From: a virus
DNA: 64,000 nucleotides
Direction: 5' to 3' (one strand)
Virus record (IMG/VR): IMGVR_UViG_3300021962_000023
Coordinates: 124,001-188,000 of that record
Every line of letters begins with the position of its first letter. Positions within the stretch are counted from its first letter, which is position 1. The position numbers and the translations under genes are program-made. The notes beneath the pieces were generated by a model. That model saw nothing but the letters and a program-made list of their open reading frames with translations, searched no databases and had not been told where the DNA came from. Of the stretch, positions 1-30,745 are shown piece after piece.

Positions 1-1098
1 TACATTTGAGTTTTCCACAACAAGTAATGCATTGTTATATTCGGTTGCCAATGAAGTTAAGAAATTACCAAAATCCTTAGTGTCAATCTTACCTCTATAT
101 TCTGCTACTTGCGAACTATCTTCAATATCAATTACTTGCGCAGTTGAAAAATCGGCTCCATCTCCACGGGCAACGTCAGCACATACCATATATTGTCTAT
201 TGTAGTTTGGATGTTCCCAAACCCACAGATTACTATCAAACCCTCTCTTTTCAACCGGCTCCATTACATAGGTATCTTTATACCAACTCAATAATGCCGG
301 TTCAATTACGGTATCACCTGAACCAATAAAGTCACAATCACATTCTTGTGCCGCTCCTTTAACTCCCAAAATACGAGTTTGTTCATCTCTCCATGCTTGA
401 TTTCTTTCAGGGTGTACAGTCCAATGTAGATTAATACAATTGAAACCATTTTGCCCAGCTTCACCGGCTACCCAAGTTTTATGGAAGAAGTTACCCACAC
501 CATTTGGTGTAGAAAGAATAATAGCAGAACCACCCGTTGATAGGGTTGATTGTGCTGATAACCAAATTTCATCGATATCTCTAATGAATGCCGCCTCATC
601 CACAACTAATAGTGATAAGGCTTCAGAACGACCTGCATCGGGAGATGATGCGATTGCTTTTACTTGCGAACCATTCTTTAATTTAAGTGATAGTTTGTTA
701 TCTTCAGCTGCCGCCGTTCCACCATCTCTTAACCATATTGGAAGTAAATCGTGCATAACTCTAACCTTTTCTACAAGGTTTTTAGCTACCGTCACTTTTG
801 TTGCAATAACCAACGCGTTGAAGTCCTGATTGAATATCATTTTCCAAAGAATAAATCCTGCCGAAAGAGTTGATAAACCCAATTGACGAGATTTAAGGAT
901 GATATTAAATCGGTTTTCCTTAAAGTCCGTTAAACAATCCTCCTGGAAAGGATAAAGGTGAAAGGGAATTTTCCCCCTCACCGGATGTTGAATAACACAA
1001 TACTTCTTCATAAAGTAAATGGGGTCAGCCGCACATTTACGATATTCTTCAGCAATTATTTCTTTTAGACTTTTCGTTGGTTTCCCTTGAACTGCCAT
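1..1098 (-). CDS. terL: Terminase large subunit, T4 gp17-like (3' end beyond window)
   Basis: This is the ATPase/nuclease motor that packages DNA into the prohead. The first 366 residues are visible and the C-terminus runs off the left edge. The ATPase domain has a Walker A-like SRQLGLST at residues 70-77, a Walker B VVDEAA at about 165-170 and a coupling STPNG at about 196-200. The nuclease domain opens with the acidic strand VCADVARGDGADFS near residue 313, where T4 gp17 has its first metal-binding aspartate. The ATG at 1098 is one base from the stop of the preceding gene, so translation is probably coupled. The family is certain; partners (small terminase, portal) are not obvious in the window. 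Confidence 0.95.
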   Translation of the reverse strand, partial: MAVQGKPTKSLKEIIAEEYRKCAADPIYFMKKYCVIQHPVRGKIPFHLYPFQEDCLTDFKENRFNIILKSRQLGLSTLSAGFILWKMIFNQDFNALVIATKVTVAKNLVEKVRVMHDLLPIWLRDGGTAAAEDNKLSLKLKNGSQVKAIASSPDAGRSEALSLLVVDEAAFIRDIDEIWLSAQSTLSTGGSAIILSTPNGVGNFFHKTWVAGEAGQNGFNCINLHWTVHPERNQAWRDEQTRILGVKGAAQECDCDFIGSGDTVIEPALLSWYKDTYVMEPVEKRGFDSNLWVWEHPNYNRQYMVCADVARGDGADFSTAQVIDIEDSSQVAEYRGKIDTKDFGNFLTSLATEYNNALLVVENSNV

Positions 1099-2465: not shown

Positions 2466-5400
2466 TTATTCGTAAAAAATACCTAATATTTGATTCAATG
2501 GTGCGAATGTACCCGTAAGTTTGTAAGTGTTTCCTTTATAAACAAATACAATACCCTCATTTGGAACTATCTTATCTTTACCACCAATACTAGCCAATCT
2601 AGCTAATTCCATTTTTAATTTAGCTATTTTAGATGGGTCACCACTTCCTCTAACTTTTTCTGCGGTTGATTTCAATCTATCCTTCATATTACGAACTGCC
2701 GCATCTGGATTTACAGTTAAAACTGAACCCATAAATGAAAGAACATCTGCCCCAACACCCAAAAATATTTCTTCAAATTGTCTAACATTATCTTTTTGTT
2801 GTTTTGCTACATTTACTTTATCGTGTTCGATTGCCCATTTTTGAGCATCTTTATCGGCAATAGTATTTAAACGGAATGATTTATCATAAAATGCCCATCT
2901 TCTAACTAATGCTTCTTTTTCTAATTTTTGTAATTTAACACCGCTTTTATTTACAAAATCTTCCCACCATGCTTGATGATATTCAGATACACCATCCTTA
3001 TCAGATAATTGGAACTGAAATTGTAGCTTTTGTAATTGAGTAAGGTATTTTGTTTGCTTTGAACTTAACTCCTCATTTTTAGGTAGTTCTGTTACAGGTG
3101 GGCCTTGTATTGTATACTTCGATTGAACATCAGCGTTTACTTGCTTAATCATTCCTGCTAACATAGTTGCTGCTCCTTGATTTGCACCAACTGCAACACC
3201 CTTCTCATCATAACAAGTTGTATTATGAAATACCAATAAAGCCTGTCCGTAAGGAATAACATTTACCGAAGTTGGCCATATTACTTCCAAATTCATAAAA
3301 CATTGTCCTTCATTAAATATCTTATTTCTTTGTGCTTCAGATAATGAACTAATTGCTGCAGATAAATCTCTCATAGCAAAATTGTAAGCATCGGTTAAAC
3401 CACCTCTACCGGCAAATTTCGATGCAACATCTTCAATACCCATAGCATTTGCTCCTGCGTTTTGTAAATGTCCTTTGTTTCTTGCTGCAATTAATCTACC
3501 ATTTTTCCAACTAATTGCCAATGCTTGTCCATCGGTTTTTTCTCTTGTCAATTCTAAGTTACCCGTCAATGCTCCTTTGATAATTTTCTTTAAATCACCA
3601 AAAGTTAAACCCATATCATCAAATGGATGACTCATATGTCCATATGCCCCACCTTCTAATATTAATCCTTCATTTATTGAGTGAGAACGGGTATCGGTTT
3701 TGAAAAAAGGACCTCTTCTAATTGTTCTGAAATCTAAACTCATTTCATTACCACCAATTTCTTTTGGTGCTATGATTTTTAATCTAACAGTCTGATTTCT
3801 ATTATCGATTCCCAATGTTTCAAATTCAATTTCAGAATACTTCTTACCTTTGAATCCTAAATTTTTACCAGTAATGAATTTATGAACCTTACCACCACTA
3901 ACGGCCTGTGCTTCATTTACAATCGTATGAGATGATGTTTGAAATTCACCCTTTCTCATTATAGTCTTAGCAATAACTTTATTTGCCATTTTTACAAATG
4001 GAATATTGATATCACTTCTCGTATCTTTAACTACGATTTGATTGTATTTATCTAAAAAATCTAAAAATTCTTTTTTGTGTCTAGCCAATCTTTTGAAGAA
4101 GCCAGTTAATTCTGGTTCTGATATTTCTTTTCCATTACGAGCATCATTTACTCTATCGAAAAAATGATTACTAAATTCTATATCAGCAGGAGATAATTCT
4201 TTATCTGCGTATTTTTCAACACTATTTAAATTGGATTGTGATAGTTTCTCTTTAAGATTTTTTTTTTCGTCTAATCCCAATTCATCGCCAACACCTGTAA
4301 TATCTCTATATCCAAAACTTCTCAATTCTCTTGCTACATCATTTCTATCTGCTTTTGGATTTTTACAAACTACTGCTGCGATTTTCTTTCTAACAAATGA
4401 ACCACCCTTATCCCACATATTCATAATTGCTTTGAATCTCCAGTCATTTGAACCAACTTCATTTACACTTTCACCTCGTGGGATTCGGAATGTAGTAGCT
4501 TGCTTACCATTGATTGTTGGCATTCCATGGTCATCAGTTCCAATATCTTTAACGGTAACTTTTTTGTTTTTAAACTTACCCATTAAAATCTCATCACCTT
4601 TATCAACATCTACATTAACATCTTCATTATAAATTTGTTTATTAATTCTACCATATTCTCTCATTAAAATTCCAGCAACTGAATGAGCTTGGTTTTCTAT
4701 TGGAGAACCATCGGCTCCATCTTGTACCGAATCTTTAATATATCCTAATTCATCTTGCTTTCTATGAACCATTTCATGTGCAATCGTTCTTAAAATATCA
4801 GCAGTTAATCTACCTTCGGTTGCAACATATATTGTTTTATCGGCTGGATTATATCCACCTAAAGATGATTTTACATTACCATATTCATTTCCTCCAACCA
4901 ATGTTATATTAGGAGTTTCTGCCAATTTTAATCTTTTAGTTGCATATTCCACAAAATGACTGATTGATTGTTTTTTTGTATCAGATAAATCTTCCTTCAT
5001 CAAATCAGCCGCTTTAGCCATTGGCTCTTGTTTTTTATATGATTGAATTGAATTTAATAATTGCTCATCATTTAGTTTATATGTTTCCATTGTTTTGGAA
5101 ACTCTACCAATTAGATTACTCAAAAATGTATTAGAATCATCGCCATTTGAGATTTCTAATAATCCCATTGTTGCGGTTGATAATCCAGCACCTGCTCCAG
5201 CTGCCTGACTTGCTCCCAATCCAAGAGATTCTAATGTAGCGTGTTTAGCAATATCTTTCATAAGGTGAGCGCCAAATCCACCTACACCATGTGTAAATGC
5301 ACCAACGGCACCATGCACAGCGGCTCCTCCGGCTGCGGCTAAACCTTGCCCTGCCATAACAGTCTTAGCTACCGCTACACCTGCTCCACCCAATGCCATT

Positions 5401-6881
5401 GAACCTAATATTAATCCAGTATCAATAGCAAAATGTTTTACATGATGTAATTGTTCTTTTCTTTTTTCATCCGAATATTCCCACTCACCTGTTTCTTTAT
5501 TTTTTGTAGAACCAATCTTTTGCCCACTAGCTAATGCTTTAACGGCATCCATTGTTCCGCCAATCATTTCCTTTTTATGCTCAGCCCAATGTTTTAATCC
5601 ATTACCAAATTGCTGTAAACCTGATTTTATATTATCTACAAATCCTTTTCTAGTTGATGAATTAGGGTCGTTTGTTGTATCTATAACATCATTTTCTTCT
5701 TTAGATAAATTTTTTCTAACAGAATCTAATTCTTCTTTTACTTTGATTTTATTCTTTTCGGAATCACTCATCTCCGCAGAAGATTTTAATTCATCTCCAC
5801 TTAATTTTTGCTCAGGAGGAGGCGCTTGTTGGCCAGATTCTTCCCCACCCTTTTTATCAGTAGTTGGTTCTTCTTTTGCTTTATCTACTTTACCTTGAGC
5901 CGTTGCTCCTTTATTTACAGGTTGTCCTGGTTGAGATGGTTTTGGTTCGTTCGCAGGTGCATCGGATGGGCCTTTAGCCATATGCTTCTGCTTTTCAGCT
6001 GCTGCTTCAGCAGGAGTTAATGCTCTCAATTTACCATTTTCCGATTTATGAGTAGCAGGTTGTCCTTTATCTTTACCATAGTATCCGCCACCCAAATGGA
6101 CTAATCCTAATTTTTCACCTTCAGATTCTTCTTTAAAATATGTTTTAACAAACTCCTCAAACATATCTTCAGCTACCGCTTTACCCAATATTTCGCTAAT
6201 TGGGTCATATAATTCGGATGTATTATGCCAATCAGGTTCGTTAGATGGATGTTCGGTTTCGTGTCTTGTTGGATGTGGCTCTGGTCTTAATTTATCAGAT
6301 GGATTTGTATTTACCGATTCGTTTAATTTGCCTGTTATCATTTTAAAAATTTCTTTATCAAATTTAGGATATGCTTTTAAAAATCCTTTTTCTTTATCTT
6401 TATTATCCTTGCCTAACCAATTACGAACATCGGTTCCACTAATTGCATTTGTTTCAGCAGGAACGGGATAAACATAACCTATTTCTTCGTATCCATATCC
6501 AGCTTTGCCTTTATATGGTTTAAAATACTTACCTTGTAATCTATTTGCATCCTTCTCTCCAACTGCTGCAATATATTGAGTTGTTTTACCATCAAATTGA
6601 GATAGTATTTCTTTTGGAGCATATGGATTACGAACTTGAACTATTTTATTTGATGGTATACCAAACATAGTAGTCATTATCTTTACCTTCTCATTAAAAT
6701 TAAAAGGGGATTTTGGACCAGAGGTATCATTAGACGTACCAATATAGACATTGTCTGTACCAAACTTTTTACAAAGTTTTAAATACGAAAGATAATGTCC
6801 TTTATGGAATGGTTGAAAACGACCCGAATATACTACTATGGTCTTTCTAACTACTGGTTTATCTACTTCGTTCAAATTCAT
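2466..6881 (-). CDS. Giant multi-enzyme polyprotein: nucleotidyltransferase, zincin, ligase-like domain
   Basis: 1471 residues with several unrelated domains. Residues 14-185 form an HxGH nucleotidylyltransferase (GRFQPFHKGH near 20-29, ISGTDVR near 148-154), NMNAT/cytidylyltransferase-like. Residues 200-460 are low-complexity, rich in P, K, E and Q. Residues 485-570 are Gly/Ala-rich and hydrophobic. A zincin-type metallopeptidase carries HEMVH at 701-705. Around 895-985 is a module starting FSNHFFDRVND, perhaps RelE/barnase-like. Residues 1077-1471 look like an ATP-dependent ligase/nucleotidyltransferase: KTDG with K1115 (motif I), LEVIWP near 1200 (III), EGIVF near 1442 (IV) and YKLTG near 1451 (V). 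Candidate prohead-protease sites (x-x-E) at E188, E808, E990, E1071 and E1076 sit near domain borders. Domain calls at both ends and the zincin are firm; overall role is inferred. Confidence 0.85.
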   Translation of the reverse strand: MNLNEVDKPVVRKTIVVYSGRFQPFHKGHYLSYLKLCKKFGTDNVYIGTSNDTSGPKSPFNFNEKVKIMTTMFGIPSNKIVQVRNPYAPKEILSQFDGKTTQYIAAVGEKDANRLQGKYFKPYKGKAGYGYEEIGYVYPVPAETNAISGTDVRNWLGKDNKDKEKGFLKAYPKFDKEIFKMITGKLNESVNTNPSDKLRPEPHPTRHETEHPSNEPDWHNTSELYDPISEILGKAVAEDMFEEFVKTYFKEESEGEKLGLVHLGGGYYGKDKGQPATHKSENGKLRALTPAEAAAEKQKHMAKGPSDAPANEPKPSQPGQPVNKGATAQGKVDKAKEEPTTDKKGGEESGQQAPPPEQKLSGDELKSSAEMSDSEKNKIKVKEELDSVRKNLSKEENDVIDTTNDPNSSTRKGFVDNIKSGLQQFGNGLKHWAEHKKEMIGGTMDAVKALASGQKIGSTKNKETGEWEYSDEKRKEQLHHVKHFAIDTGLILGSMALGGAGVAVAKTVMAGQGLAAAGGAAVHGAVGAFTHGVGGFGAHLMKDIAKHATLESLGLGASQAAGAGAGLSTATMGLLEISNGDDSNTFLSNLIGRVSKTMETYKLNDEQLLNSIQSYKKQEPMAKAADLMKEDLSDTKKQSISHFVEYATKRLKLAETPNITLVGGNEYGNVKSSLGGYNPADKTIYVATEGRLTADILRTIAHEMVHRKQDELGYIKDSVQDGADGSPIENQAHSVAGILMREYGRINKQIYNEDVNVDVDKGDEILMGKFKNKKVTVKDIGTDDHGMPTINGKQATTFRIPRGESVNEVGSNDWRFKAIMNMWDKGGSFVRKKIAAVVCKNPKADRNDVARELRSFGYRDITGVGDELGLDEKKNLKEKLSQSNLNSVEKYADKELSPADIEFSNHFFDRVNDARNGKEISEPELTGFFKRLARHKKEFLDFLDKYNQIVVKDTRSDINIPFVKMANKVIAKTIMRKGEFQTSSHTIVNEAQAVSGGKVHKFITGKNLGFKGKKYSEIEFETLGIDNRNQTVRLKIIAPKEIGGNEMSLDFRTIRRGPFFKTDTRSHSINEGLILEGGAYGHMSHPFDDMGLTFGDLKKIIKGALTGNLELTREKTDGQALAISWKNGRLIAARNKGHLQNAGANAMGIEDVASKFAGRGGLTDAYNFAMRDLSAAISSLSEAQRNKIFNEGQCFMNLEVIWPTSVNVIPYGQALLVFHNTTCYDEKGVAVGANQGAATMLAGMIKQVNADVQSKYTIQGPPVTELPKNEELSSKQTKYLTQLQKLQFQFQLSDKDGVSEYHQAWWEDFVNKSGVKLQKLEKEALVRRWAFYDKSFRLNTIADKDAQKWAIEHDKVNVAKQQKDNVRQFEEIFLGVGADVLSFMGSVLTVNPDAAVRNMKDRLKSTAEKVRGSGDPSKIAKLKMELARLASIGGKDKIVPNEGIVFVYKGNTYKLTGTFAPLNQILGIFYE

Positions 6882-9624: not shown

Positions 9625-10280
9625 AGTAACTTATTTTTTTCTATATAATTAATTATTTCATTTGCTAAAACATCATGTCCTTCTTGATTCATATGAAAAT
9701 CGGTACAATTAAATTTTGCAGCTAATGTATATTTGTTTGAATTACTACCGATTTTTTTATAACTACCAGGGTCAGTCATTGTATCAAAATTAAAATTATT
9801 TAAAATATAAATAGTTCTATCTCTTACGATTTCTGAAGATAATTTACTATCAATATTGTTATCTGATAAAAGTTTTAACTCCGATTCAGTAACATCCGGC
9901 CACATCCAATGGATAAATCTAACAGGTATATTTTTATTTTCTAAGTTGATTACCATATTTTCAATAGCATCCACTTGCTCATTTATACTCATAATATGCC
10001 TACCAAATTGAGTAGTTTGAAATATTAACAATTTAATATTATGTTCATTCCAACTCGTAGCATCAATTTCATCCATAGTATATTTTATAGAACCGATATT
10101 ATTTCCACCATTCCATTGTTTTGAAATACAATTTTTATTAAAATGGTTTGATACTTTGGTTATCCACCTATTTTCAATTAAATATTTCTGATTAATTGAA
10201 TTTTGATGTGTATCTTTTGTTTCTCGCCACAATCCTTCTCCATATGTAAATGAGCAACCAGAAAATAATATACTATCCAT
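9621..10280 (-). CDS. SGNH/GDSL-type hydrolase or acyltransferase-like protein
   Basis: 219 residues. Block I is GCSFT at 8-12, placing the candidate nucleophile serine at 10. The C-terminal Asp-His pair is in DFHMNQEGH at about 194-202, followed by the ANEIINYI helix usual in the family. In glycan clusters such proteins remove or add O-acetyl groups. It is one of six SGNH-type proteins in the window, five of them in this cluster. It overlaps its neighbours by 1 and 4 bases. Whether it hydrolyses or transfers acyl groups cannot be told. Confidence 0.8.
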   Translation of the reverse strand: MDSILFSGCSFTYGEGLWRETKDTHQNSINQKYLIENRWITKVSNHFNKNCISKQWNGGNNIGSIKYTMDEIDATSWNEHNIKLLIFQTTQFGRHIMSINEQVDAIENMVINLENKNIPVRFIHWMWPDVTESELKLLSDNNIDSKLSSEIVRDRTIYILNNFNFDTMTDPGSYKKIGSNSNKYTLAAKFNCTDFHMNQEGHDVLANEIINYIEKNKLL

Positions 10281-11887
10281 TATGGCTTCGAATTAGGATT
10301 ATATAAGTGTTTATGTTCTTTATACCATTCCAATGTTTCTTTAAGAGCTTGTTTTAAATCTCTCTTTGGTTTCCATCCTAAATCATTAATTTTTTTAGAT
10401 GATAATAATCTAACTGGAATCATAGGTGCTTTGTTATTTACATAATCGATTGGTTTATCATTGTTATCCAATTCTTTAATCCAACCTAAAACTTCATTTA
10501 CACTAAATCCTTCACCATAACAAAGATTATAAATAGAATATCTATCCACCATTTCTGCTAAAAATATCATACCATCTGCCATATCTTCAACATGTAGTAA
10601 ATCTCGGATTTCAGTTCCATCACCCCATACTGGTATTGGGTCTAATCCATCTGCTACTTTACGAATGTTTGCAGGAGTAACATGACACTTTTCGAAATCA
10701 AACTTATCATTCGGTCCGAATGCATTCGAAGGTCTGATAATTATACATTGCATTGGATTTTCAATCTGATTAGAAAAGAAATCACATAACATTTCACCAT
10801 ATCGTTTCATACCACCAACTGCTTTATAAATTGGTAATAATGGGGTAGCATGTACATTAATATCTTCGGTACAAAATTCATTTTTCATATCAGGATATGT
10901 TGTGTTTGAAGAAATAAACATAAATTTCTTAACACTATTTACCCAACTTTGCTCCATCATATTAACATTCATTATAACATTTGGAGTTACATGCAACAAT
11001 GGATTAAATTTCGTATCCAATGCATTTGAAGTATTTGCTGCTAAATGGAATACAACATCAACATCTTTTGTAATTTGTTTACAAAATTCAGCATCTCGTA
11101 AATCACCCTTAATATGCTCAATAGATTGTTTATTTTCTATTGTATCAGGCAAATCTCTACTGAATGATGTAGTTCGTAGATTCCAATATCCTTTTTCTTT
11201 TAAACTCTTAACTAATTGTGAACCAATAAATCCACTTGCTCCTGTAACTAAAATTTTGTAACTTTTTCCCATATGATTTCGTTTATGAATGAATGCGCAA
11301 ATTGCTAATCTTTTTCCGTTTGTAACTGGTGTGACTTCATGCGACACCTCATTATTTATATAATCAATACATATTGCTTGTCCAAATTCAGGCGCAACAT
11401 CTATTATTTCATTTGTATTTGGGTCTATAACTCTTAGTAGACCACCATTATCAACATCATAATTTTCATTTAAGTAAAATAAAAATCCAGCCATTCTGTC
11501 GGAATCTCTACCATCAATATGTTCTTCTATAAAACATCCTTCTGTATACATTGTAACATTCCATAGAATTTCTAATGGATAATTTATATTCGGATATAAA
11601 GTTTTAAAATGCCTTTCTAACATTTTTTCAACTTCAACTCTATTTTCAGGCTTATTTAATGTATACCAAATTTGACTTAATTTAGTATTTTCATTTAAGA
11701 TTCTTTCTTTTTCTTTTTCTGAATTTTCAAATGTTTTATCAAACCCAGTTGGGAATGAATAACTTTGATTACCCACACCTTCAGCGGATGCTCGTATATT
11801 CTCTATATTAGTAGATAATTCTAAGACCTTTTTTAAAATAGATTGGTCATTAGAATCTAAAGTATATAATTTAAATGGTTGATTCAT
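10280..11887 (-). CDS. Fusion of 2-oxoglutarate/Fe(II) oxygenase and NAD-dependent sugar epimerase/dehydratase
   Basis: 535 residues. Residues 1-203 are a prolyl-4-hydroxylase-type double-stranded beta helix with iron ligands H123, D125 and H183 and the 2-oxoglutarate-binding R193. Residues 210-535 are an extended SDR with Rossmann GASGFIG at 216-222. The expected YxxxK is out of register: K361 is present but V357 stands at the tyrosine position and the nearest tyrosine is Y354. An internal ATG (M206 at 11270-11272) sits exactly at the junction and could give the SDR alone. A TTTG-N20-TATCTTTA promoter lies just upstream. The likely role is synthesis of a hydroxylated or epimerised sugar or amino-sugar intermediate. 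Confidence 0.85.
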   Translation of the reverse strand: MNQPFKLYTLDSNDQSILKKVLELSTNIENIRASAEGVGNQSYSFPTGFDKTFENSEKEKERILNENTKLSQIWYTLNKPENRVEVEKMLERHFKTLYPNINYPLEILWNVTMYTEGCFIEEHIDGRDSDRMAGFLFYLNENYDVDNGGLLRVIDPNTNEIIDVAPEFGQAICIDYINNEVSHEVTPVTNGKRLAICAFIHKRNHMGKSYKILVTGASGFIGSQLVKSLKEKGYWNLRTTSFSRDLPDTIENKQSIEHIKGDLRDAEFCKQITKDVDVVFHLAANTSNALDTKFNPLLHVTPNVIMNVNMMEQSWVNSVKKFMFISSNTTYPDMKNEFCTEDINVHATPLLPIYKAVGGMKRYGEMLCDFFSNQIENPMQCIIIRPSNAFGPNDKFDFEKCHVTPANIRKVADGLDPIPVWGDGTEIRDLLHVEDMADGMIFLAEMVDRYSIYNLCYGEGFSVNEVLGWIKELDNNDKPIDYVNNKAPMIPVRLLSSKKINDLGWKPKRDLKQALKETLEWYKEHKHLYNPNSKP

Positions 11888-23919: not shown

Positions 23920-24654
23920 TTATAACTTTTCTAAATCTTTACAATGTTTCATTAAGTGATTATTATTTCCAGTCATGTCCCAAAATTTATAATCAGTTTC
24001 AGTTTTGAAATCAAAACAACACAATAAACCTAATTCATTTTTAGTTAAACATCTGAATCCATGTTTATTTTCTTTTACATATTTATCGATGTTTTTTCTG
24101 AAATCATTTATTGTAGAACCATCTAATTTTTTGTTAGATACTGTGAAGAAATCAGTATAACATTCTTGTGCCCAACTAAAGTCACCTTTAGTATCAGCTG
24201 CTCCAATAAAATAAGGTGCGTTGATATAATCTCTCAACTTACCTGCCAATGTTTCGGAATAAACTAATTCATCATCTATCCAAAATTCATAGGTAAATGT
24301 TTCACCATCCCAATTTAATGTAAATAAATGTGGTTCATTCCAAAATGCTTCATCTTTATAGAATAAAATTTTATCAGCATATTTTTCTTCTTCGTTTTCA
24401 ACATACCAAAAATTTAACATCAACATATCAGGCTTTCTATAAACGATTCCCGTATGTAATCCTCTTCTCATAAAGATTCCAGCCATATCATCTATTTTAG
24501 AATCATCTTCACTTCGTTTCCAAGTTCCACTTATAGTCCAACTTGATTCATTCATTACATAAAACGCAGAGGTATCAATGATACCATAAGCGTTGTGTGG
24601 CCACCAAGGTAAATCTGCTAAAATTAATGGCGCTTTGTGTGATACTTTATACAT
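23920..24654 (-). CDS. Concanavalin A-like/LamG-type domain protein
   Basis: 244 residues with no signal peptide. The pattern of short strands (WTISGTWKR, FMRRGLHTGIVYR, LFTLNWDGETFTYEFWIDDELVYSE, YFIGAADTKG) is that of a LamG/concanavalin A-like jelly-roll, a carbohydrate-binding fold. Related domains form the C-terminal parts of the two GT7-like proteins and part of the giant virion protein at 45044. It overlaps the radical SAM gene by one base. It may bind the glycan product or be displayed on the virion. Confidence 0.7.
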   Translation of the reverse strand: MYKVSHKAPLILADLPWWPHNAYGIIDTSAFYVMNESSWTISGTWKRSEDDSKIDDMAGIFMRRGLHTGIVYRKPDMLMLNFWYVENEEEKYADKILFYKDEAFWNEPHLFTLNWDGETFTYEFWIDDELVYSETLAGKLRDYINAPYFIGAADTKGDFSWAQECYTDFFTVSNKKLDGSTINDFRKNIDKYVKENKHGFRCLTKNELGLLCCFDFKTETDYKFWDMTGNNNHLMKHCKDLEKL

Positions 24655-26054
24655 TATAACTTAATTTCTTTTGTAAAGTGATAAAATTCTTCTAATTCAG
24701 GGAATGTTTTACAAAAATCAGTTCCTCTTCTTTTATCATGTTCGCTGAAGAATTTATAAAAATTGTAACGTGATTTATGTAATTCCATAGCATCGATAGG
24801 CGAAATCGCCCAATCGTATGTTCTTTTTAATTTTTGAATTTCCAAATCGGAATATCCAACATACCCCTTTGAATAATATGGAATTCCATAATAGAATGCC
24901 AATTGAGCTTGGTCAAATATGTTTTGTTTAAATTGATGTGGAAGTACTTGAACAGTTTGATGACGAGGATGTCTTAAATATGATGTATCCAATAATACTG
25001 GCGATAACCAGTATCTATCATCACCAGCATATTCTCTTTTCAAATCATATACTCCTTTAATTAATTTATCAAAACTGAATACTGATAACATATTGTATGT
25101 TACCATAAATGTAATAGTGATTCTTGGAACTTCTCTTAAAATTCTATTTACATTATTCCAAAAACGATTAAACTCCAATCCATTACGAATATATTCAGCT
25201 TGCTCACCCCATCCATCGCATGATGTAAATAACACAAATCCTTTTACTTTATCTTCTTCGGTAATTCTTTTTAATTTTTCAATTAATTTAGTAATCAACT
25301 CATCGGGTACACCTAAATTTGAATTGATTGAAAAATCTAAATTTTTATTTGGATTTGGTTCATCAATAATATAATCCAATACTTTCCAAGTATCTTTATG
25401 CATTAAAGGTTCACCGCCAGTAATTCTAAAGGTATGTAAATCCCTATATAAGTCAGGCCACCATTTCCAAAATGCTTCTACATATGGATTATGTTCTCTC
25501 AATGGAATTGGCATCTTTTGTTCTGCTGCCAAATGTTTTAAATCATTAAAACTATCCGTTGTATTATATGCACCATATTGTTGAATTTCCTCCATCCATT
25601 TAGTAGAAAATGTAGGTGAACAATATGAACATGCAAAGTTACAAGCATTTGAGAATGCAACTTCTACATAACGTGGGTTAAAATCATCTCTCCAATTTGA
25701 ATTAATGATTTGGTCTGCTAAAGGCCAACTCCAATCTTCCGATGATTTAAAAACTCTATCAGAATACAAATCGGAATTATCCTCAACCCCCCAACAATAA
25801 TCACATTCAGAAGGTCTTGCGCCATTCATCATTTCTTTTCTTCTTTGCTTTTTAAACAAAGTGTTATGGAGTGCTGATGGATTCCGTTTAATCTCTTGTT
25901 CGGAAACTTTATGAGTATTAGGGTGGTGACACGAGTGATTGTGACCAGTGTGTAAGTGCGTTGTGACTTGTGTCCATTTCGCCAAACACATTCCCTTACC
26001 TACATTATCCAATGTATTCTTTACTTCTTCGTAAAGTGGTTTTTTATATGCCAT
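24654..26054 (-). CDS. Radical SAM protein, twitch-type
   Basis: 466 residues. The iron-sulfur cysteines are C138, C142 and C145 (CNFACSYC), with GGEP at 213-216. Before these is a Cys/His-rich N-terminus (CLAKW at 23, several His around 33-48, CDYC at 84-87) that may hold a second metal site. Phage and marine bacterial proteins with this plan are usually labelled twitch-domain radical SAM. It is a second radical SAM enzyme in the same cluster but is not a close relative of the one at 18996. Target unknown. Confidence 0.85.
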   Translation of the reverse strand: MAYKKPLYEEVKNTLDNVGKGMCLAKWTQVTTHLHTGHNHSCHHPNTHKVSEQEIKRNPSALHNTLFKKQRRKEMMNGARPSECDYCWGVEDNSDLYSDRVFKSSEDWSWPLADQIINSNWRDDFNPRYVEVAFSNACNFACSYCSPTFSTKWMEEIQQYGAYNTTDSFNDLKHLAAEQKMPIPLREHNPYVEAFWKWWPDLYRDLHTFRITGGEPLMHKDTWKVLDYIIDEPNPNKNLDFSINSNLGVPDELITKLIEKLKRITEEDKVKGFVLFTSCDGWGEQAEYIRNGLEFNRFWNNVNRILREVPRITITFMVTYNMLSVFSFDKLIKGVYDLKREYAGDDRYWLSPVLLDTSYLRHPRHQTVQVLPHQFKQNIFDQAQLAFYYGIPYYSKGYVGYSDLEIQKLKRTYDWAISPIDAMELHKSRYNFYKFFSEHDKRRGTDFCKTFPELEEFYHFTKEIKL

Positions 26055-26056
26055 AA

Positions 26057-27463
26057 CTATGCTTTAACATTTATTAATTTGTGTTTATTATATATAGTAT
26101 CAATTGATAATAATTCGTATTTCATAGAATTTATACCATCCGATTTGTAATCAATACTTCCTTGCTGCATTTGTAAAACATATCGTCTTTCGTTTCTTGC
26201 AGTGGTTTCACCTTTTGCCCATTTATCTATTCCACCTTCATTTATCAACCCTTCCGTTTGATGAGGTAAACATCTAAATTTACCATTTCTTCTATGTGGT
26301 AATATCGTATGTGGTATTTCTATTTTTTCTTTTCTATATTCAACATTTGTAGATTCTCCAAAATCCAAATTCATAGTAAATAAATCTAAAACTAAATTAT
26401 CTTCTGGAAATTTGATGTGTAAATTTTTAATTTCTTTAGGAGTCAAACATCTATCCCACATTGCTATCGATGCAACTGCTCCTTTAAAAAAAGATTCAAC
26501 GGGAGATTTTGAATATCCAATATAAAACGGCTCCATACCATATCGTTTCAATGGTTCATTATATATTAAGGGAGATTGTGTACCCGTTCCCAATCTTGCA
26601 TCACTTTCTCTACCATTTAAATAGAAATGTATTTTTTTATTATCTGCATCAACAGCCATTGTAATCCAACTCCATTGATTCTCATATCTTTTAATCCATT
26701 GATACAAATGCCCTTTCATTCTATCCCAAAGTTGCATTGTATATGCTCTACTATTATTAAACGATAATCCCCAATCATAACCAGGTTTTCTGAAGATTGG
26801 ATATTCCATAAATTGTCTATTATTATCTCCAATTAGCCAAATAGGAACTTTTTCAATTTGCTGTTCAGCTTTTACTAATACTGAAATAGTATGTGAGTTT
26901 GAAATACAATTCTTTTGTTCTCTCGAAGGTCTAAATTCTATTTTCGAATCTACACCATTAAAATATGCTACAACTTGCTCTTCGTTATAATCTAATTTAG
27001 TTTTTTCAGCATATCCTTCCATCACACATCTCCAAAATAAATCATCATCTTCCATTCCCCAATCCCAATAATCATTAGAGTACCCATTAGTTCGTTCAAC
27101 TTGTTCCTTAGAAAACACAACCGCTCCTCCAAAGTATTCTTCATATTTTAATTGATAATCCGATTGTGAGATACGAACTGCAATGTGTTGGGGATTATCA
27201 TTAGGAAACGAATAATCACAACTCTCATCTTCAGGAACCATATCTATATCATGCCAAACGATGTAATCACATCCATCATCAAATGCATGTTTAGCTGCAA
27301 TGTTTTTCATTAAACCTCTATTGAATAATTTATCATCACATTGATGTGCTAAATAAATTGTATGTTCAATTCCCCTCTCTTCCAAAAACTTTGAAACATG
27401 AGGAACAAACTCATTCATATGAGCTTCTCTATTTCTATATGGTACACATACTCCTAATTTCAT
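26057..27463 (-). CDS. GT7-like galactosyltransferase fused to a LamG domain
   Basis: 468 residues in three parts. Residues 1-155 are a GT-A glycosyltransferase resembling the beta-1,4-galactosyltransferase family GT7: VPYRNR at 7-12, FNRG at 47-50, metal-binding DID at 72-74, and the acceptor-side NGYSNDYWDWGMEDDD ending at 141. Residues about 170-370 are a LamG/concanavalin A-like domain with a YLNGRE hairpin. The last 80 residues (IPHTILPHRR onward) recur in the next gene. Pairing of a transferase with a lectin-like domain suggests processive or surface-anchored action. It precedes the radical SAM gene by 2 bases. Confidence 0.85.
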   Translation of the reverse strand: MKLGVCVPYRNREAHMNEFVPHVSKFLEERGIEHTIYLAHQCDDKLFNRGLMKNIAAKHAFDDGCDYIVWHDIDMVPEDESCDYSFPNDNPQHIAVRISQSDYQLKYEEYFGGAVVFSKEQVERTNGYSNDYWDWGMEDDDLFWRCVMEGYAEKTKLDYNEEQVVAYFNGVDSKIEFRPSREQKNCISNSHTISVLVKAEQQIEKVPIWLIGDNNRQFMEYPIFRKPGYDWGLSFNNSRAYTMQLWDRMKGHLYQWIKRYENQWSWITMAVDADNKKIHFYLNGRESDARLGTGTQSPLIYNEPLKRYGMEPFYIGYSKSPVESFFKGAVASIAMWDRCLTPKEIKNLHIKFPEDNLVLDLFTMNLDFGESTNVEYRKEKIEIPHTILPHRRNGKFRCLPHQTEGLINEGGIDKWAKGETTARNERRYVLQMQQGSIDYKSDGINSMKYELLSIDTIYNKHKLINVKA

Positions 27464-28875: not shown

Positions 28876-29077
28876 CACCCTCTACTACCTTTTTGTGAAA
28901 TTCAGCTAAATACCATTGTATTCTTTCACCCCACTCATCTTTATCAATTTCTTCAAACCAAACAGTTAATGCATCTAAAGAGTTTGCAATCTTTTCTAAT
29001 GCTTTAACTTTTTTAGCTTCTAATAATAATAATTCAGATGCTTCTTGCGTTTCTTGTTGTTCTTTTTTTGTAGACAT
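28865..29077 (-). CDS. Small acidic hypothetical protein, first gene after a host-type promoter
   Basis: 70 residues, strongly charged and helical (two blocks, KKEQQETQEASELLLLEAKK and the WFEEIDKDEWGERIQWYL region). No family recognised. It is the first ORF after the TTTG-N20-TATCTTTA promoter at 29094-29125 and leads the part of the glycan cluster that runs leftward from 29 kb. The composition suggests a small protein-protein partner. Confidence 0.65.
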   Translation of the reverse strand: MSTKKEQQETQEASELLLLEAKKVKALEKIANSLDALTVWFEEIDKDEWGERIQWYLAEFHKKVVEGDAD

Positions 29078-29093
29078 AACTTTATTATTTTTA

Positions 29094-29125
29094 TAAAGAT
29101 AATATATTTTATTTAAAATTCCAAA
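29094..29125 (-). promoter_or_regulatory. Host-type promoter TTTG-N20-TATCTTTA
   Basis: TTTG at 29122-29125 and TATCTTTA at 29094-29101 on the minus strand are separated by exactly 20 bases. The -7 element is followed by an ATG at 29077, giving a leader of about 11 bases. The 48-base gap contains little else, which strengthens the call. Confidence 0.65.
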
Positions 29126-29968
29126 TTATATTGTAACTATTTTTTGAATTAATTCTGACCATTTTGAGTATTCTCCTTGCTGAATATATTCCATACCAAA
29201 TTCCGAATTAGCAATATCAATTTCAAAATTATTTCTTCTAATTGCTTGGTACATTTTTAAATATTCTGATGAATATGCATAATCTTTTCTAATATCGGCT
29301 ACTGCTTTAATTCTTTCTACACAAGTACTATCCCATTTAAAATGATGAACCTGTGCATTATATTTATCAATAGGTGCTATTAGTTTATTTTCAGTTTGTG
29401 GGCCCCATAAAGTTTCTCCATTTACTTTTGCATAATGTTGGCCTGAAGTTATCTCAACATATCCTTTCATTACACATACTTTATTTGGACACGCACCACT
29501 TAATGGGTATCTAAAGAATCCTGCAAGTGGAAATTGGTCAAATATATTTTTATAAGGTAATATTTCAGGAAAACTTCCAAATGTACCAATTCTATCTATA
29601 AACCCACCTCTAACAATATCCCATCCATTTTCTTCACAATCTTCAATCATAAATGGTAATGGCATTGAATATACATGCAATTCATCATCATCCGAAACTA
29701 CCCACCAATCATCGGGATGTAATACCTTAGTTTCATTATATAATTGGGTTACATATTCCCAATTAAACTTTTCTTTCTTTTCAACTCTAACTACTTTTGC
29801 TGTTGGGAAATTTTTAAGTATTTCACCTACTTCATCTAAAATAGACATACCTTCCCATTCATATACTACAACATAAATTTCATCAACTATATGCTTGTAG
29901 TGATTCAACATATGCCAGAGAGTGTTTGTTCTACTTCCTGTCACTGTTACTAATCTTACTTTTTTCAT
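29126..29968 (-). CDS. GT2/GT92-like glycosyltransferase
   Basis: 280 residues. The N-terminus has the strand RLVTVTGSRTNTL, then the nucleotide-sugar region YNET and the metal-binding DDDE at 93-96 (a DxD motif), and further on a GGFIDR strand and a ground-state GxH-like VNGETLWGP segment. This is the order of GT-A inverting transferases with a single domain. It is followed after 48 bases by the small gene with its own promoter. Donor sugar unknown. Confidence 0.75.
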   Translation of the reverse strand: MKKVRLVTVTGSRTNTLWHMLNHYKHIVDEIYVVVYEWEGMSILDEVGEILKNFPTAKVVRVEKKEKFNWEYVTQLYNETKVLHPDDWWVVSDDDELHVYSMPLPFMIEDCEENGWDIVRGGFIDRIGTFGSFPEILPYKNIFDQFPLAGFFRYPLSGACPNKVCVMKGYVEITSGQHYAKVNGETLWGPQTENKLIAPIDKYNAQVHHFKWDSTCVERIKAVADIRKDYAYSSEYLKMYQAIRRNNFEIDIANSEFGMEYIQQGEYSKWSELIQKIVTI

Positions 29969-29980
29969 TTAATTTTTATT

Positions 29981-30745
29981 TTAACTTTTTCTTGTTAGTA
30001 GTGTCAGTCCTGTCGAGGTTGGTCTTTTTGTTCCAAATATACGAAAATTTTTTAAATTTACCAAATTCCAATCGGTATTGTTTTCTAATTCTTTTACAAA
30101 TTTTGCAGGCCCATCAAATGTGGCAAAATCTTTTTTTGCATCTTCAGTAACAATAAATGTATCGTGATATAATTGGTCAGTATCATGAATAGTTATGATT
30201 CCATTTTCGGATATTATAGTTGAATATAAATCAAAATCTTTTTTAACTCCTTCATACGAATGGTCGCCATCTATATGTAGATAATCAATTTTAATATCCT
30301 GTCTAACAAAGTAATCGTAAAATGCTCTCTCCGAAGTTTCTAATATAATTTGAGGGCTGAAATGTTTTCTAAGGAATGAATCTTCTTCAGTCCAATCGGT
30401 AAATCCACCCACCCCATTTGAGGCATCTACTATAATAGTTGTACCAACATCGCCCCACTCATTTGATGAATTTCCTTCAAATATATTTTGAGAATGTAAA
30501 TCAACTCTGGCTTGAGTCATTAATCGTGGAATAAATCCACCACCACTTCCAATACACACACATACCTTTGCTCTTATAAATTGTATGAATGAATATACCA
30601 ATAACCCATCTCCCAAATGTAAATCAGTTGCACCATGCGTCCAACGATAGTTTATAGGAGTATGTATTTGATTACCCTCTTCATCAAATTGATGATTATT
30701 AGTAAGGTAATCTTTAACTATATTTAAATTTATAAGACTTTGCAT
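29981..30745 (-). CDS. Class I methyltransferase, Methyltransf_24 type
   Basis: 254 residues from the ATG at 30745; an upstream TTG adds five residues and is less likely. The SAM loop is GSGGGF at 66-71, and the typical acidic motif IDGDHSYEG is at 158-166, followed by IITIHDTD. This pattern is that of the methyltransferase family found in rhamnosyl and other O-methyltransferases of polysaccharide loci. It overlaps the upstream glycosyltransferase by 16 bases. O-methylation of the glycan is likely. Confidence 0.85.
   Translation of the reverse strand: MQSLINLNIVKDYLTNNHQFDEEGNQIHTPINYRWTHGATDLHLGDGLLVYSFIQFIRAKVCVCIGSGGGFIPRLMTQARVDLHSQNIFEGNSSNEWGDVGTTIIVDASNGVGGFTDWTEEDSFLRKHFSPQIILETSERAFYDYFVRQDIKIDYLHIDGDHSYEGVKKDFDLYSTIISENGIITIHDTDQLYHDTFIVTEDAKKDFATFDGPAKFVKELENNTDWNLVNLKNFRIFGTKRPTSTGLTLLTRKS

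Follow-up and report, generated by a model that had tools for sequence, protein, structure and literature searches.

In the 64,000-nucleotide stretch of viral DNA analysed here, called the window (positions 124,001 to 188,000 of the IMG/VR record IMGVR_UViG_3300021962_000023), positions 2466-6881 of the minus strand form a single unbroken open reading frame (ORF) of 1471 codons, with stops throughout the plus-strand reading of the same segment. We propose, with a probability of roughly three in four, that this gene of a T4-like phage encodes a polyprotein carried as cargo in the virion, which would be cut by a gp21-type head protease and whose pieces would be ejected together with the DNA. A previous sequence-only reading had taken the protein as an injected multi-enzyme cargo, and this idea gains support from N-termini resembling capsid-targeting sequences (CTS) and from junction sites of the head-protease type, whereas injection as a single chain is the part that we would abandon, the protein being probably cut into pieces. 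With somewhat less confidence, but still as the probable interpretation of these sequences, we regard the arrangement as a new delivery format, where one N-terminal tag would lead the chain to the prohead, the head protease would cut it at pre-set sites, and swappable enzymes would be co-injected, with cassettes moving between tagged genes and polyprotein, and with the family carrying a new RNA-ligase-like enzyme.

In the mechanism that we propose, the N-terminus would work as a short capsid-targeting propeptide providing entry into the prohead core, and the gp21-type protease would cut after the Glu of the [L/I/V/F]-x-E sites that are seen between the domains. From the 160-kDa chain, this would yield pieces predicted at about 21, 47, 20, 8, 13, 9, and 44 kDa, with a nucleotidyltransferase at the N-terminal end, then a piece holding the linker and the hydrophobic stretch, a zincin piece, small basic modules together with a RegB/BECR-like RNase, and, last, the RNA-ligase-like enzyme. 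These pieces would be ejected with the DNA and be active in the first minutes of infection, their likeliest role being RNA repair and counter-defence, in which they would reseal tRNA or RNA cut by the host, cleave selected RNAs, and perhaps also replenish a nucleotide cofactor. We favour this role judging from the RNA-ligase-like enzyme and the RNase, and also from a CCA-enzyme tail and kinases encoded elsewhere in the family. Because the cassettes are bounded by cutting sites, they could be gained, lost, and swapped freely, as the homologues show; RNA-ligase-like, RNase-like, kinase, acetyltransferase, zincin, CCA-enzyme-tail, and SAM-lyase-like proteins are all seen either as cassettes or as tagged stand-alone proteins. 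If this is true, the head-protease motif read from sequence would predict, cassette by cassette, which enzymes are delivered before any gene expression, and it would explain how T4-like phages assemble and renew their injected arsenal.

Junction sites, head protease, and targeting-like N-termini

The T4 gp21 protease cleaves after L/I-X-E (PMC9026906), and the source record, a 198.5-kb contig of a T4-like virus from IMG/VR that is possibly incomplete, encodes gp23 (E 8e-77) and a gp21-family head protease, Peptidase_S77 (E 5.7e-30; phage S77 protease at L006:17828-18418), the S77 protease of this family being present in 16 of the 16 contigs tested. In the major capsid proteins of the window phage and three relatives, the N-terminal region ends in LLDE/A, LISE/A, IVSE/A, or LLKE/A, an [L/I/V]xE/A rule, and the polyprotein has the features of a T4-type gp21 substrate, namely L/I-x-E at conserved positions and an S77 prohead protease in the same genome. 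The polyprotein gene is located in the terminase/head gene cluster, with the large terminase TerL (its N-terminal part inside the window at 1..1098, minus strand) two genes downstream. The terminase-proximal position that had been claimed is general in the family, given that TerL lies downstream on the same strand in all 231 loci having both genes, at a median distance of 1.4 kb.

Upstream of the ligase-like C-terminal domain, where the window protein carries a doubled predicted head-protease site INE/GLILE/ (residues 1069-1076; 3654..3677, minus strand), 68 unrelated contexts, which are <40% identical over the 15 residues before the junction, have L, I, or V at P3 without exception and Glu at P1 in 67/68, with an extra Glu five residues earlier in 62%. 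Upstream of other modules, again in unrelated contexts, Glu occupies P1 before K (23/23), S (13/13), F (8/8), C (8/8), Z (83%), and R (77%), compared with a background of 6% for E and 1.8% for [ILVMF]xE. In addition, 39.5% of the ends of shared segments lie at ≤3 residues from [ILVMF]xE, the random value being 12.4%; controls with D, N, Q, or S showed no such enrichment, and the K control showed little. Since homologues have breakpoints in common, the counts are not independent of one another. The junction before the ligase-like domain uses seven codons at P3 and both GAA and GAG at P1, while P2 is free, and therefore the constraint acts on the protein and not on the DNA.

The N-termini point in the same direction. 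Many relatives start with a peptide of 12-20 residues ending in ILxE/A, FLxE/A, or similar (for example MNKLTKWLVESILTE/A and MKGLAKFLVETILGE/A), which resembles the MKTYQEFIAE/A start of T4 IPII/IPIII, and the clade of the window protein starts with MNLNE/V or MNLINE/V, resembling the MELITE/L of T4 Alt, whose propeptide is reported to have 7 residues (PMC9026906). The same genome encodes further proteins with MI[KR]LKxLL...E N-termini, at 7.2-9.4 kb and elsewhere. One of these, a zeta-toxin/AAA_33-like kinase with the CTS-like start MIKLKDLLNSNILNE/G (genome 7887-8639 of contig L001), is also a module in the polyproteins of contigs L192, L199, and L200, the homology beginning at an xNE/G site, and another of these tagged proteins (26057-27016) has a matching module in L168. 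Single proteins with a tag and modules of the polyprotein are therefore interchangeable, and in our reading of the sequences this interchangeability is the strongest sign that the protein would be a string of head cargo.

Two side observations concern tagged proteins. Beside the kinase gene, a protein of the S-adenosylmethionine (SAM) lyase family (genome 7189-7890 of L001; PF23780, E 3e-13) has the propeptide-like start MIKAGRYDLNE/AS and is possibly a virion-delivered anti-restriction enzyme. In the cultured Flavobacterium phage immuto (L293, 112.2-118.9 kb), several separate proteins with tag-like N-termini (for example MRLLELLREA, MADNFNLRSFLTE) stand where the polyprotein would be, upstream of TerL, and one of them bears a RegB-like module.

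Predicted enzymatic modules of the proposed polyprotein

The 1471-residue protein contains all the motifs quoted in the sequence-only reading, namely GRFQPFHKGH (20-29) and ISGTDVR (147-153) in the N-terminal part, HEMVH, which is located at 702-706 and not at 701-705 as had been given, and KTDG (1115-1118), ARNK (1133-1136), LEVIWP (1198-1203), EGIVF (1442-1446), and YKLTG (1453-1457) in the C-terminal part. The union of separate enzyme domains in one protein was likewise supported, these being nucleotidyltransferase, zincin, weakly RNase-like, and RNA-ligase-like parts. As a test of chance, GxFxPxHxGH was found in 0 of 2000 shuffles; HExxH alone appears in ~5% of shuffles, and the window protein has two copies, one of them at 207-211 within the linker.

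Residues 1077-1471 (2469..3653, minus strand) form the RNA-ligase-like covalent nucleotidyltransferase domain, in which K1115 is the predicted nucleotidyl lysine, and E1199, E1442, and K1454 belong to motifs III, IV, and V. Each of the motifs EKxDG, [NS][LIV]E[VIL][ILM], EG[IVL]VF, and K[LF]TG is present in 238/238 C-terminal domains, and an alignment of 46 sequences shows no or almost no variation in EKxDG, ARNK, the motif III Glu followed by P (+4) and Y (+12), EGxVF, and KLTG. By hmmscan, these residues matched no Pfam family, neither PF09414/PF09511 nor any other Pfam ligase, the rest of the window's own record yielded no RNA ligase of PF09414/PF09511 either, and searches of PDB sequences with the C-terminal profile returned low-complexity look-alikes only, such as eS6. 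When the AlphaFold2 (AF2) model (predicted local distance difference test, pLDDT, of 80.7) was compared with PDB by Foldseek, the ten top-ranking matches were all Rnl3-type or Rnl1-type RNA ligases, with Rnl2 and Naegleria ligases next, and in BFVD the model matched its own family first, then a 389-aa Ackermannviridae protein (E 3e-7), and then, with weak E-values, many annotated viral RNA ligases. An hhalign comparison with T4 Rnl1 placed KxDG and the E/P/Y motif in register. A DNA ligase identity was rejected, since PF01068 is absent from the genome and the fold matches are RNA ligases; thus, of the ATP-dependent ligase-like domain read earlier, the ligase-like character stands, with resemblance to RNA rather than DNA ligases.

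With motifs I KxDG, III E, IV EG, and V K ordered and invariant on a ligase-like fold, residues 1077-1471 are, by motifs and predicted structure, a new RNA-ligase-like family, which is widespread and unannotated, with >550 hits among the IMG/VR matches listed. T4 Rnl1 (gp63) and other RNA ligases share with it KxDG, downstream basic residues, the motif III E...P.......Y with the same +4/+12 spacing, and the EG and K of motifs IV and V. In contrast to them, the domain lacks a significant Pfam or PDB ligase sequence match, contains ~170 additional, mainly helical residues inserted between its motifs III and IV, and has its own N-terminal motif, GGxYGHMxHPFDD. In contigs L017 and L018, the gene is interrupted exactly at EK/TDG within motif I (L017:12120-14458; L018:7281-9649) by a split intein, whose halves read CIAGDT... 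(N-half) and ...VHN/T (C-half) and whose relative by PDB match is NrdJ-1 (E 7e-7). Inteins favour active sites, and this position is an independent hint, read from sequence, that the ligase-like domain may be functional. Because the intein interrupts motif I, the L017 and L018 polyproteins would need protein trans-splicing. A free-standing 244-aa endonuclease-like ORF lies between the two halves, and an intron was rejected as the cause of the gap in L017, given that no Rfam match was obtained and that the gap is a split intein. As a side observation, the TerL gene of L017 (15832-17459) stops abruptly in an intein-like AQECD/CLWGESKVQV..., and the ORF after it resembles the 244-aa endonuclease-like one, so that TerL probably carries a second split intein.

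The N-terminal module, residues 1-188 (6318..6881, minus strand), is a nucleotidyltransferase of the HIGH superfamily resembling nicotinamide mononucleotide (NMN) adenylyltransferases, with the propeptide-like start MNLNE/V and a predicted site LNE188/S at its end. It has HxGH and ISxTxxR, passes the cut-off of PF01467 (24.3 bits vs. 21), and matches phrog_395 (E 1.8e-12). Its best sub-family matches are NMN adenylyltransferases (E ~1e-5), and it also matches PDB 2qjt (E 0.0036), so that one could think of a cargo for salvage of nicotinamide adenine dinucleotide (NAD+), in which this enzyme would counter NADase defences by restoring NAD+ and the C-terminal domain would have an auxiliary role, all the more since phage NAD+ reconstitution has already been described. 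However, in that work NadM is always accompanied by NadV (PMC9503650), and the window's record has no gene for a NadV-like NAPRTase partner, which is present in only 2 of the 8 records searched. Moreover, the scores of NMN adenylyltransferase models fall far under their cut-offs, the NadM/NadR equivalog reaching at best 23.9 bits vs. 397 and the archaeal model 22 vs. 181. We therefore consider the NAD+ salvage reading doubtful and disfavour it as the main role. Judging from these matches, the N-terminal enzyme may restore NAD+, but the NAD-pool role suggested earlier is weaker than a role in RNA repair and anti-defence.

Between the two ends, residues 189-630 (4992..6317, minus strand) comprise a low-complexity linker (~189-480) and, by hydropathy, a Gly/Ala-rich hydrophobic stretch (~484-575), closed by a predicted site MKE630/D; the counterpart of this region varies in length among homologues. 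The zincin metallopeptidase-like module follows at residues 631-756 (4614..4991, minus strand), where HEMVH and a downstream Glu in ENQAH (729-733) provide the HExxH-plus-Glu signature of zincins. It matches the phrog_87 metallo-protease (E 0.0019) and has a stand-alone homologue in cyanophage S-SRM01; among the zincin modules, HE..H is found in 81/81 and EN[QE]A within the next 30 aa in 57/81. Next come the small beta-rich module K, recognised by its module profile (residues 757-808; 4458..4613, minus strand; predicted site VNE808/V after it), and the small helical module S with SNDWxFKAIM (residues 809-878; 4248..4457, minus strand; AF2 pLDDT ~80-93; predicted site LKE878/K after it).

Residues 879-990 (3912..4247, minus strand; predicted site VNE990/A after them) are weakly RegB/BECR-RNase-like by sequence comparison. 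The invariant His and Arg of HxxxR (906-910), in an N-terminal helix, align with the HxxxR of T4 RegB, and a conserved C-terminal Thr fits the description of PBECR RNases by Iyer et al. (PMC5512222), while, unlike in the known enzymes, the score is under the curated cut-off and the second His of RegB is not conserved in the alignment. A counterpart 51% identical is found in phage immuto. The nuclease-like module read earlier at ~890-990 is thus a real conserved module, its RNase likeness coming from weak matches under the cut-off. As judged from sequence, this is the weakest of the domain assignments, followed by the exact substrates of the nucleotidyltransferase and the ligase-like domain. 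The small module F (residues 991-1071; 3669..3911, minus strand; predicted site INE1071/G after it) completes the series.

Weighing the alternatives and comparison with known systems

Several points weigh against a processed RNA-repair cargo. Packaging and cleavage are predictions from sequence; the sites upstream of F2 and NT are less regular in a fixed-offset test, as are the starts of V and X, for which the hand-set boundaries are inexact, although the flank lists of all four nonetheless include E-ended junctions. In the window protein, the candidate junctions 630 and 878 are weak and the N-terminal propeptide MNLNE/V is very short, the clear CTS-like N-termini being found in other clades. 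The PDB fold matches of the C-terminal domain are individually weak (best E 0.09), and the profile comparison with T4 Rnl1 has a weak, non-significant score (E 0.07). The RegB-like module matches PF10715 with E 0.008 (8e-4 for its best homologue), at 16.7 and 19.9 bits, under the gathering cut-off of 27. The segment-wise structure prediction proposed earlier succeeded for the C-terminal domain, whereas AF2 on the S and RegB-like modules left the RegB-like part not folded (pLDDT ~45).

The chain could instead be an uncut polyvalent protein, packaged and injected intact as a multi-domain enzyme, like the N4 virion RNA polymerase, which is packaged unprocessed, or the conjugative polyvalent proteins, which are transferred whole (Iyer et al., PMC5512222); also, one ORF joins the domains in most homologues. 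We think this unlikely, given that an uncut chain would have no reason to keep L/I-x-E at junctions between unrelated modules, and that the phage encodes the matching protease. It is more improbable still that the Glu sites are recombination scars or domain caps, with the protein working as a late or early intracellular enzyme rather than as virion cargo. Breakpoints do coincide with Glu sites, but the amino-acid-level constraint, with its diverse P3 and P1 codons and free P2, led us to reject a DNA-repeat or recombination-scar origin of the junctions, and the capsid-targeting-like N-termini and the place of the gene within the terminase/head cluster also argue against an intracellular enzyme. 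Least probable of all is self-processing by the internal zincin, in line with the autoprocessing published for polyvalent proteins as a proposal (PMC5512222) and with the HExxH module that roughly every second homologue has. No HExxH at all occurs in 41 of the 80 non-redundant full-length homologues, and 39/40 of those counted retain [L/I]-x-E ahead of the C-terminal domain; therefore, the zincin is not what the sites serve, and it was rejected as the main mechanism. The site fits, moreover, the S77 protease rule and the propeptide ends of the capsid proteins.

The cleaved head cargo that we favour has partial precedents. Like polyvalent proteins (PMC5512222), it is a long, phage-encoded chain of several disparate enzymatic domains (zincin, BECR-type RNase, and GNAT elsewhere in the family), located beside packaging genes, with strong domain mosaicism and predicted injection. 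Unlike them, the family is built round a HIGH nucleotidyltransferase and an RNA-ligase-like domain and has gp21-type sites at most junctions, whereas polyvalent proteins are proposed to be processed for the most part by their internal zincins, with fused assemblin-like peptidases taking this role in a few of them (Iyer et al. 2017, PMC5512222). With T4 IPI-III and Alt (PMC9026906), the family shares an S77 protease in the genome and, clearly in other clades but in the window protein just as the Alt-like MNLNE/V, CTS-like N-termini ending in L/I-x-E, Alt being the precedent of an injected enzyme, but the T4 cargo consists of single enzymes with terminal propeptides, in contrast to many enzymes with internal sites. 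In the phiKZ/SPN3US head proteins (PMC10052503), the prohead protease also cuts after E, at several sites in some substrates, but their extra cuts fall inside removed propeptides and not between enzyme domains. In the literature searched, most subscription journals lying outside the search, we found no enzyme polyprotein with cassettes delimited by gp21-type sites and no virion-proteomics paper on phage immuto or Mel-JY01. What would be new here, on sequence grounds, is the cassette polyprotein bounded by gp21-type sites and the RNA-ligase-like family, the concepts of polyvalent proteins and internal head proteins being already known.

Cassette shuffling in the family and neighbouring genes

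Viral contigs from fresh water and the sea contain numerous relatives, and the full-length homologues range from 974 to 2026 aa. Microcystis phage Mel-JY01 carries a two-domain version, where the predicted site is IIAE/GGLGGHM. The ligase-like end is nearly constant and the nucleotidyltransferase is mostly kept (30/33 diverse members), while the modules between the two ends are shuffled, duplicated, lost, or replaced. Among the other cassettes in relatives are a zeta-toxin-like kinase, GNAT, DUF5661, a further module resembling zinc proteases, and a CCA-adding/poly(A) polymerase tail. A jumbo phage of 429-462 kb has the ligase-like domain as a separate protein, preceded by MKFLKSYEEFLNE-NLILE/GG, and its next gene contains a nucleotidyltransferase.

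The polyprotein of contig L243 (1-600) begins at the contig end, and its first part is an RNA-binding tail as in CCA-adding/poly(A) polymerases (PF12627, E 6e-7), closed by a VINE/V site; no CCA-enzyme core was found by motif search. A cassette of ~270 aa, whose STF and NEVVL motifs recall those of ADP-ribosyltransferases (T4 Alt has NEMEVIL), is seen in L050 (region 9693-10500), L080 (~208-470 aa), and L243 (~200-490 aa); it has no significant PDB match.

Elsewhere in the genome, the 539-aa protein encoded at 29045-30664 (L002) has an N-terminal sequence like that of the chaperonin GroEL. The polyprotein and the tail genes are separated by a long run of genes resembling those of sugar and surface modification (8456-31704), which includes a nucleotide-sugar epimerase (10280-11887), ORFs looking like SGNH hydrolases, a radical SAM protein (24654-26054), and glycosyltransferase-like ORFs.

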